Below are positions 40,816 through 50,131 of a stretch of 64,000 nt of DNA, in pieces. The translations under genes were made by a program, and so were the position numbers. The DNA is from Lancefieldella sp. Marseille-Q7238 (GTDB lineage: Bacteria; Actinomycetota; Coriobacteriia; Coriobacteriales; Atopobiaceae). The DNA lies in the NCBI RefSeq assembly GCF_949152215.1, contig NZ_OX424407.1, positions 500,530 through 564,529 on the forward strand. Reading direction: 5' to 3'. The notes under the pieces are model-generated. The model saw only the letters and a program-made list of their open reading frames with translations. It did not search any database and was not told the DNA's origin. Position 1 is the first letter of the stretch; each line of letters begins with the position of its first letter.

Positions 40816-41490
40816 TTACACGCGGAATAGGTAACCGACGCCGCGCACTGTTTCGATATGACCCGCCGCCTGTGGGCCAATCTTGGAGCGAACACGACGA
40901 ACATGCACGTCAACGGTGCGAGTGCCACCGCAATATTCAAACCCCCACACGCGCTGCAAAAGCACTTCTCGAGAATACGCGCGCGATGGGTGACTTGCCA
41001 AAAACGAAAGCAACAAATACTCCATATACGTTAAATCAACCGGAGCATCGTCAATATAGACCTGATACGTTGCAAGGTTGATTTTGATATTGTCTACAAT
41101 CACCAAATCACGAGAAGTACTTTCGGCCCCCGGCCAAAGCAGCAACGAACAGCGCAAGCTGAGTTCCGGAAGACCCGCCGTCGCGACAATGAAATCATTG
41201 TGTCCCTGAGATGGAGGAGTAAAACTGACAAGCGCCTCCAAATCACAAACAAACAGCCGTGGAATGGAGCTGTTTTGCGTACAGAACGCATCAACGGCAG
41301 TAGCAAACTCGGACGATAGGCCCTTCTCGTCAATGATAACAAGGTCAAAGGTGCGTCCTGATATCGGTACCTGCGAAAACGTCGCTTCAGTAGCAAGGGC
41401 GACAGAAACATCAATCACACGCGTAAGCTCACGCATGCGCTCATGCAGACGCGCGGTAGCTGAAATGAGCAGGATGTTCTTATGGTGCAT
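40816..41490 (-). CDS. glnR: GlnR-like OmpR-family response regulator
   Basis: Likely nitrogen regulator. The 224-residue protein has a degenerate receiver (no acidic pair after the first strand: NILLISATA; Asp54 kept in DLVIIDEK) and a C-terminal winged helix with LTYMEYLLLSFLASHPSRAYSRE and GGTRTVDVHVRRVRSKIG (in parts SREVLLQRVWG, TRTVDVHVRRVRSK). This is very close to the actinobacterial GlnR pattern, which also has an atypical receiver and an orphan status. No sensor kinase gene adjoins it. It lies 51 bases after the glutamine-synthetase homologue on the same strand. Confidence 0.75.
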   Translation of the reverse strand: MHHKNILLISATARLHERMRELTRVIDVSVALATEATFSQVPISGRTFDLVIIDEKGLSSEFATAVDAFCTQNSSIPRLFVCDLEALVSFTPPSQGHNDFIVATAGLPELSLRCSLLLWPGAESTSRDLVIVDNIKINLATYQVYIDDAPVDLTYMEYLLLSFLASHPSRAYSREVLLQRVWGFEYCGGTRTVDVHVRRVRSKIGPQAAGHIETVRGVGYLFRV

Positions 41491-41541: not shown

Positions 41542-42855
41542 TCAGACGCCCGCGTAATACTTCATACGATCCCAATCGGTCACGGCAATGCAGCTCTCGC
41601 GCCATTCCTGCTCCTTGCGCTCACACAAATAGCCAAAGATGTGATCACCCAACGTCTTACGCATGAGCTCGGACTCTTTGAAGCGAACAAGGGCTTCTCC
41701 CAGCGTTGCTGGCAGAGGCTCGCCAAAATCGGCGGGATTCCCTCCCTCATATTCAGGAGGAAGCGGGAGTTCGTCCTCAATGCCCTTCAACCCCGCCATC
41801 AACGTCGCTGCAAGCGCGAGATACGGGTTTGCACAGGGATCGGGATTGAGAAGCTCCGCGCGCGTGGCAATATGCTTGCCCGGCTTATGCGCAGGAATGC
41901 GAACCAAAGCCGCCCGATTCTTGCAGCCCCACGTTGTGTAATGTGGAATAGCCTCGCGATCAAAGCGCTTGTACGAGTTGACCGTCGGATTGGTAATCAA
42001 CATGAATTCCGGCGCGTATTTCAGAAGGCCGGCAACATAGTGCTGCGCCAACGGCGACAGATGCGCCGGATGACTTGATTTAGGAGCCCAGAACAGATTT
42101 TCGCCTTTGTGGTCAAGGAGCGACTCATACAAAAACATCGCGGACCCCGGCACACCCTGCAGGGGCTTGGGCATAAAGGTTGCAAAGACGCCGTGAAGCG
42201 TTGCAATGTGACGGATGACCAAACGTGCGGTCATGATACTGTCAGCGCAGCTCACGGCTTCGGAATAACGCAGCTCCACGCCATTTTGCGACGGGCCGGC
42301 CGCATGGAAGGAATACTGCACCGGAACGGACATGGCTTCAAGCGCTCGCGCTGTGGCGTAGCGCAAATCATGCGATAAGTCCGCCGAGGCGAGGTCAAGA
42401 TAGCCCGCATGATCGATAGGGGTTGGGTGCACGCTGTCGGTAAAATAAAAATACTCGAGCTTAGGACCAACGTTCATGGCATAGCCCTTTTCGTCAGCCT
42501 TCATAAACGCGCGCTCAAGCACACGGCGCGGGTCTCCCTCAAAAGGTTCGCGCGACGGCGTTTGAATATCGCAAAACACATTGGCGACTGTTTCGCCATC
42601 GTTTTCCCAGGGCAGGACTTGAAACGTTGCTACATCGGGAAACGCCAAAAGATCAGACTGTTCATGGGACGCGAAGCCCTCGACAGCGGAACCGTCAAAG
42701 CCAATGCCCTCAACAAAAGCCTCTTCAAGCTCCTCCGGCGAAATCGACAGCGCCTTCAGATTCCCCTGCACATCCGTAAAGCAAAGGCGCAAGTAGCGAA
42801 TGTCGCGCTCTTCGACCGTGCGTAGTATATAGTCAATTTTCTTATCGTCAGTCAT
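41542..42855 (-). CDS. glnA: Glutamine-synthetase homologue with degenerate metal site
   Basis: 437 residues, collinear with the GSI-alpha enzymes of Bacillus (FDGSAVEGF, ATFMPKPL, TNPTVNSYKR, NRAALVRIP, NPYLALAATL). Key residues differ: the GPEPEFF site reads GPKLEYF (Glu to Lys132, Glu134 kept); HHEVAPGQHEI reads FHAAGPSQNGV (two Glu lost, at 185 and 192); GSGMHC reads GSAMFL (His to Phe241). Only Glu134 and Glu334 of the six metal ligands remain. It is therefore probably not a normal synthetase; a sensor, regulator or new ligase are possibilities. Start at ATG 42855 (GGAGGAAC upstream). A GlnR-type box lies upstream and a GlnR-like gene downstream. No adenylylation insert. Confidence 0.85.
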   Translation of the reverse strand: MTDDKKIDYILRTVEERDIRYLRLCFTDVQGNLKALSISPEELEEAFVEGIGFDGSAVEGFASHEQSDLLAFPDVATFQVLPWENDGETVANVFCDIQTPSREPFEGDPRRVLERAFMKADEKGYAMNVGPKLEYFYFTDSVHPTPIDHAGYLDLASADLSHDLRYATARALEAMSVPVQYSFHAAGPSQNGVELRYSEAVSCADSIMTARLVIRHIATLHGVFATFMPKPLQGVPGSAMFLYESLLDHKGENLFWAPKSSHPAHLSPLAQHYVAGLLKYAPEFMLITNPTVNSYKRFDREAIPHYTTWGCKNRAALVRIPAHKPGKHIATRAELLNPDPCANPYLALAATLMAGLKGIEDELPLPPEYEGGNPADFGEPLPATLGEALVRFKESELMRKTLGDHIFGYLCERKEQEWRESCIAVTDWDRMKYYAGV

Positions 42856-42897
42856 AAGTTCCTCCGAGACAGCTGCACAATGCGACACCTATACATT

Positions 42898-42924
42898 CTC
42901 ACAAAAATGTTTCGTGACTGTTTC
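42898..42924 (-). promoter_or_regulatory. GlnR-type operator, three half-sites at 11-bp period
   Basis: On the minus strand GAAAC (42920-42924), GAAAC (42909-42913) and GTGAG (42898-42902) follow at an exact 11-base period. This fits the actinobacterial GlnR pattern of AC-n9-AC with GTnAC/GAAAC half-sites. The box is 43-69 bases before the start of the glutamine-synthetase homologue. Confidence 0.6.
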
Positions 42925-49905: not shown

Positions 49906-50131
49906 TAAAAATCCTTTCGTCTCTCTGCCCTGTGTCAAATCGGGCAGTGCTCAGCAGACGGCAAACGTGCGTAGACGGCGCACCCTTACACTGGTTTGAC
50001 ATTGTACTCCGCAGAGGTGACTTTCGAGTGGGTAACTACTATATTGGTAACGGTTTCACGCAATTGTTACGTTGACGCATCGCCGCGGCTCAGGCTTTTT
50101 CTTCCACGGCGAGAAGAGCGAGGTTTTGGCT

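Follow-up and report, generated by a model that had tools for sequence, protein, structure and literature searches.

The locus

The window analysed here is a stretch of 64,000 nucleotides from Lancefieldella sp. Marseille-Q7238. On its minus strand it carries a gene for a glutamine synthetase (GS)-like protein with a GlnR-like regulator gene downstream, and a ribosome-binding site and a GlnR box upstream (Table 1). A sequence-only reading of the locus had described an intact frame with a good ribosome site, an apparent GlnR box and an adjoining GlnR-like gene, and each of these elements was recovered in our analysis. The GS-like frame is open from a GTG at 42888 (41542-42888, minus strand, 448 aa) and its extension between GTG and ATG is without homology. 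As homology begins at the ATG at 42855 and the ribosome-binding site lies just upstream of it, this ATG is the likelier start.

Table 1: Features of the GS-like locus and positions of the replaced metal ligands.
Feature	Position in window	Strand	Remarks
GSI-like pseudoenzyme gene	41542..42855	-	PF00120 289 bits, PF03951 84 bits; ligands lost
Ribosome-binding site GGAGGAAC	42859..42866	-	read directly from the sequence
Predicted GlnR box GAAACAGTCACGAAAC = GAAAC-AGTCAC-GAAAC	42909..42924	-	54-69 bp upstream of the ATG
GlnR-like OmpR-type regulator, winged helix and degenerate receiver	40816..41490	-	51 bp downstream of the GS-like gene
E132 (metal n2) equivalent, now Lys	42460..42462	-	alignment; K132 from ATG, K143 from GTG
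E189 (metal n1) equivalent, now Ala	42301..42303	-	alignment
E196 (metal n1) equivalent, now Gly	42280..42282	-	alignment
H245 (metal n2) equivalent, now Phe	42133..42135	-	alignment

A GS fold with most metal ligands lost

Both GS domains were found in the product using Pfam, while the score for NCBIfam TIGR00653 (GlnA) is 335 bits and below the curated cut-off of 429. An AlphaFold model built from 75 sequences (pLDDT 91.4, pTM 0.92), which was used instead of an earlier one from 15 sequences (pLDDT 68), has GS structures as its best PDB matches with a TM of about 0.9. Pfam and the structure model thereby place the GS fold, with its beta-grasp and catalytic domains, in this protein. The loss of four of the six metal ligands, which had been proposed by comparison with Bacillus GlnA, could be confirmed: in HMMER alignments against the GS of Paenibacillus and Methanosarcina all ligands are in register and show the replacements E132K, E189A, E196G and H245F (E132, E134, E189, E196, N240, H245, E304, E333, R335 and R62 refer to the Bacillus numbering). 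MAFFT alignments gave the substitutions in register too, no shifted ligands were seen, and the alignment gap nearest to a ligand is a three-residue insertion before E333 (HMMER). Counting from the ATG reproduces exactly the positions K132, A185, G192 and F241 given by the sequence-only reading. The motifs GPKLEYF, FHAAGPSQNGV and GSAMFL of the window protein correspond to GPEPEFF, HHEVAPGQHEI and GSGMHC in the reference GS.

Only E134 and E333 are left as metal ligands in the window protein, which additionally shows Pro for N240 and Leu for R335. The E-flap glutamate E304, which is lost in the genus of the window, and the Gln-feedback arginine R62 are replaced by Ala and Ser, respectively. The catalytic Asp is retained. 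The product of 41542-42855 is therefore a protein of the GSI-alpha fold with two of the six metal ligands remaining. ATP transfer in the GS fold requires these metals, and judging from the residues present two-metal catalysis is very unlikely, in line with the original statement that the protein can hardly bind both metals.

Single origin and selection

To follow the GS-like gene through related bacteria, 60 genomes around that of the window were searched for homologues. The gene is present in every Atopobiaceae genome of at least 95% completeness, and a single internal stop occurs in two Atopobiaceae copies among the surveyed genomes. We reconstructed a maximum-likelihood tree of 85 sequences (quick search, SH-aLRT support), in which E189, E196 and H245 each change once, on the same branch and with a support of 100. 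All three are replaced in 36 of 36 tree sequences from Atopobiaceae and Collinsella (here called the dead clade), and in other Coriobacteriia families the metal ligands are mostly intact. A single loss of E189, E196 and H245 took place in the ancestor shared by Atopobiaceae and Coriobacteriaceae, and chance or sequencing error is excluded as the same three losses are found in all 36 sampled sequences. In contrast, Lys at E132 is present in only part of the 36 sequences and is a later and variable change. The survey of Coriobacteriia showed the losses beside the GlnR-like gene as well. The trait is not specific for the strain and goes back to one ancient event. Many columns with lowered conservation in the dead clade belong to the metal and nucleotide site (194, 196, 203, 205, 252, 254), whereas the pocket residues R308, R325, R330, K335 and R343 are invariant across it.

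The maintenance of the gene, assumed earlier from its open frame, is also reflected in its sequence divergence. Compared to the nearest species the pN/pS is 0.064 for the GS-like gene, 0.049 for the type III GS (GSIII) and 0.144 for the neighbouring regulator, values that are crude because synonymous sites are near saturation. Compared to a second genome (G001) it is 0.21 for the GS-like gene, the faster evolving of the two GS, and 0.13 for GSIII. Raw pN/pS was used since this saturation made the dN/dS from Biopython unusable for the GS. The GS-like gene is under purifying selection.

One Atopobiaceae locus (L012, G027:C1:806494-808748) carries two tandem pseudo-GS copies, one of them truncated, with a further fragment on contig C16. 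Outside the dead clade, the GS of Slackia isoflavoniconvertens (L078), of an uncultured member of the Eggerthellaceae (L122) and of family f3 (L043/L045) have kept E189, E196 and H245 and have changed n2 ligands independently (E132A/T, E333A/V/D). These are possible further cases of GS decay, and the GS genes L078 and L122 also adjoin a GlnR-like gene.

The neighbouring regulator, its box and the gene order

Describing the neighbouring gene as GlnR-like was appropriate, but it encodes an OmpR-type actinobacterial regulator and not a MerR-type GlnR as in Bacillus. Its receiver is atypical and without phosphorylation pocket, as there is no match to Response_reg in Pfam and the acidic position is not conserved. 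The closest solved relatives are 8hig, 8hih and 8hml, which the result table names as OmpR-family only and which we take to be actinobacterial GlnR entries. The recognition helix is nearly identical to theirs, with GGTRTVDVHVRR being identical, and the protein ends at GYLF and is without C-terminal tail. Judging from these features, the neighbour is an orthologue of the actinobacterial OmpR-type GlnR.

Of 29 Atopobiaceae loci, 24 carry a box like that of the window ahead of the GS gene, compared to a background rate of 0.0008 per 200 bp. Among 19 loci with intact ligands the number is 7, and these come mainly from Anaerosomatales and relatives. Three genomes, including one of the Atopobiaceae, have such a box in front of amtB-glnK as well. 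The form GAAAC-N6-GAAAC is strongly conserved upstream of the operon and represents a predicted GlnR-binding site, and the box of the window matches GlnR boxes listed for actinobacteria (PMC10704036). A regulon search with GWAAC-N6-GAAAY or GWAAC-N6-GWAAC in the genome of the window and two congeners gave no excess over a control with the reversed pattern, and the genome of the window yielded no further gene with a conserved box. A candidate box at a gene for a 4Fe-4S protein (G000:C1:822895) is probably due to chance, as the gene of the nearest relative has no counterpart. Control of GSIII by GlnR was discarded, because a strict box is missing upstream of its gene in almost all genomes. With neither a second conserved box gene in this genome nor a box at GSIII, the regulon may be tiny.

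The order of GS followed by GlnR on the same strand occurs in Atopobiaceae, Collinsella, Eggerthellaceae and Anaerosomatales. At 12 further loci, mostly from Acidimicrobiia and unclassified actinobacteria, a GlnR-like gene lies directly downstream of a GSI gene (L132, L109, L093, L084, L116, L082, L096, L123, L105, L112, L098 and L094), and the GS ligands are intact where checked. These deep-branching loci suggest that the pair is ancestral. As Anaerosomatales, Eggerthellaceae and Acidimicrobiia show this order next to a GS whose ligands are intact, the pair is older than the loss of catalysis. Many Atopobiaceae have a polar amino-acid ABC transporter with a GlnQ-type ATPase between GS and GlnR, which is gone in the window. 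The presence of both genes agrees in 58 of 60 genomes (49 with both, one with GS alone, one with GlnR alone, nine with neither; Fisher 6.6e-9, which ignores kinship), a count that is inflated by their adjacency on incomplete assemblies. Yet one genome of 94% completeness (G035, 1.0 Mb) lacks both. Three other Atopobiaceae genomes without GS-like gene and GlnR (G004, G010, G012) are 57-86% complete, and G042 is the one genome with GS but without GlnR.

Glutamine synthesis and nitrogen genes elsewhere in the genome

If the protein is dead, a true GS should exist elsewhere, as the sequence-only reading had predicted, and the genome search revealed a single further GS outside the window, an unrelated GSIII with a length of 715 aa (G000:C1:602411). 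GSIII is present in 36 of 36 genomes with a ligand-lost GSI versus 11 of 14 with an intact GSI (Fisher p 0.019), and in the other three GSI is the sole GS. AmtB was looked for in the genome of the window and is absent, as is PII from all four genomes of its genus, and PII/AmtB was discarded as a sensing route here.

A proposed regulatory role for the dead GS

We think that the catalytically dead GSI is probably kept for a non-catalytic, regulatory role together with GlnR. Following this model, early Actinomycetota would have had an active GSI and GlnR as a gene pair under its own control. Glutamine synthesis would have been taken over by GSIII, and the ancestor shared by Atopobiaceae and Coriobacteriaceae would have dropped three metal ligands from its GSI. 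The loss would have spared the fold, the arginines that bind phosphate and glutamate, and both the gene and the box of GlnR, and the GS protein would have been retained for a second, non-catalytic job with the adjacent OmpR-type GlnR. The box would control its own operon, to which a GlnQ-type amino-acid transporter belongs in many relatives, and in some genomes also amtB-glnK. We infer the oligomer, the contact with GlnR, the effector and the sign of regulation that such a role would involve.

The original proposal of a glutamine or nitrogen sensor that acts on the regulator survives in part. Synteny, co-occurrence and the loss of catalysis with the pair being kept speak indirectly for it, but not in its glutamine version. 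Of 33 members of the dead clade, 31 no longer have the Gln-feedback arginine (R62 in Bacillus, R66 in M. mazei), so that glutamine is not the obvious effector, and as the window protein also lacks E304 and R335 a binding of glutamine in the known way is doubtful. A docking of the GlnR tail into GS as in Bacillus was likewise discarded, since the regulator has no such tail.

As a more specific form of the regulatory role, 2-oxoglutarate bound between the subunits might assemble a dodecamer and switch GlnR on under nitrogen limitation, by analogy to GlnA1 from Methanosarcina mazei, which is activated by 2-oxoglutarate (contact residues from PMC11957540). With the metals and the Gln-feedback arginine gone, 2-oxoglutarate has the best-preserved site among the known GS effectors: the full set of seven M. 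mazei contacts (F24, R26, S38, R87, R172, R173 and S189) is present in 25 of the 33 proteins of the dead clade and in 20 of 24 intact GSI from Coriobacteriia, compared to 5 of 18 other GSI. However, these columns are not retained significantly better than others of equal conservation (p 0.09 without the genus of the window, 0.27 with it). Four of the seven are changed in all four members of this genus (F24Y, S38A, R87E/K, R173Y), and the window protein itself has kept R26, R172 and S189 and shows Tyr for F24. We therefore regard this version as rather unlikely. The erosion of the known ligand sites in this genus, despite persisting selection and synteny, would also fit a purely structural partner that stabilises GlnR or sequesters it, as a titration scaffold would, and that responds to no small molecule. 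Outside the genus, however, both the pocket arginines and the 2-oxoglutarate site are retained, which argues against it, and we consider it unlikely.

Strong purifying selection together with the conserved active-site arginines and catalytic Asp could also be explained by an altered enzyme, a ligase or another reaction using fewer or other metals, as had been offered as the second possibility in the sequence-only reading. However, neither of the n1 glutamates nor the n2 histidine is left, and phosphoryl transfer of the GS type needs exactly the lost metals. Moreover, the replacements in the dead clade vary in kind (A/S/G/T/D and G/A/V/S for the n1 glutamates, F/L/Y/P for the n2 histidine), a pattern that resembles relaxed constraint more than the making of another metal site, and a new ligase is highly improbable. 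Since the GS-like gene is the first of its operon, it could finally be a relic without own function that is carried along by selection on the promoter and the downstream genes. This is scarcely credible and already largely refuted by the pN/pS in the nearest pair, by long open frames across many genera and by the retention of the gene even where the order of GS and GlnR is interrupted or changed.

Comparison with known systems

With type I-alpha GS such as GlnA of Bacillus, Paenibacillus and Methanosarcina, the window protein shares fold, length, about 40% identity and a TM of about 0.9 as well as the catalytic Asp and the pocket arginines. It differs in the four lost metal ligands, the lost Gln-feedback arginine, the loss of E304 in its genus and the score below the NCBIfam cut-off. 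Lengsin is a GS-fold protein of the lens and thus an example for the use of this fold without or apart from catalysis, as is a GS from Fusarium with separable sensing and catalytic roles (PMC3829961). In contrast to the dead GS, these are a eukaryotic GS and a lens protein, without an operon shared with a bacterial regulator. In the glnRA system of Bacillus and Paenibacillus the GS under feedback inhibition by glutamine binds and controls the MerR-type GlnR, docking by the C-terminal tail of the regulator (PMC9249791). Our locus has in common with it a GS gene paired with a regulator called GlnR and, as proposed logic, the GS as sensor, but its regulator is of the unrelated OmpR-type and without GS-binding tail, and its GS is dead.

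The OmpR-type GlnR of Streptomyces and Mycobacterium (PMC10704036) shows the same near-identical recognition helix, 5+6+5 box and atypical receiver. Unlike these, the regulator described here is encoded with a GS gene, is shorter by the lack of the C-terminal extension and, as far as known, has a box only at its own operon in the genome of the window. Compared to M. mazei GlnA1, most of the dead clade appears to share the 2-oxoglutarate contacts, but no catalysis is expected and the site is eroded in the window's genus.

Both modules of GS with a regulator and pseudoenzymes are known in kind. In the open-access literature searched, no paper was found on a dead GS that is ancient, extends through a whole lineage and shares an operon with an OmpR-type GlnR, and within this literature the combination appears to be unreported. 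A lineage in which the GS encoded with GlnR is no longer catalytic yet still under selection provides a natural separation-of-function experiment, and if GS talks to GlnR, these genomes show the effect without the confounding enzyme activity. According to a 2023 review, signal and kinases of the actinobacterial GlnR are unknown (PMC10704036), and the dead GS lineage makes the question of its nitrogen signal testable. Tentatively, and with some doubt, it is even possible that the sensor long sought for the OmpR-type GlnR of actinobacteria is GS itself, that GS-GlnR is an ancestral sensor-regulator module and that the GS of Atopobiaceae and Coriobacteriaceae is a dedicated dead metabolite sensor, most likely for 2-oxoglutarate. 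In the gut and oral genera Collinsella, Olsenella and Lancefieldella the dead proteins are presumably annotated as glutamine synthetase, which would mislead metabolic models.

Other observations

A scan with Rfam gave nothing at the GS-like locus and an aspS RNA motif (RF02930, 67.8 bits) at positions 49912-49989 on the minus strand of the window. Elsewhere in the genome, two near-identical copies of one region (L223 and L234, at G000:C1:77251 and 1023669), coding for proteins of 599 and 282 aa, are probably a duplicated mobile element.
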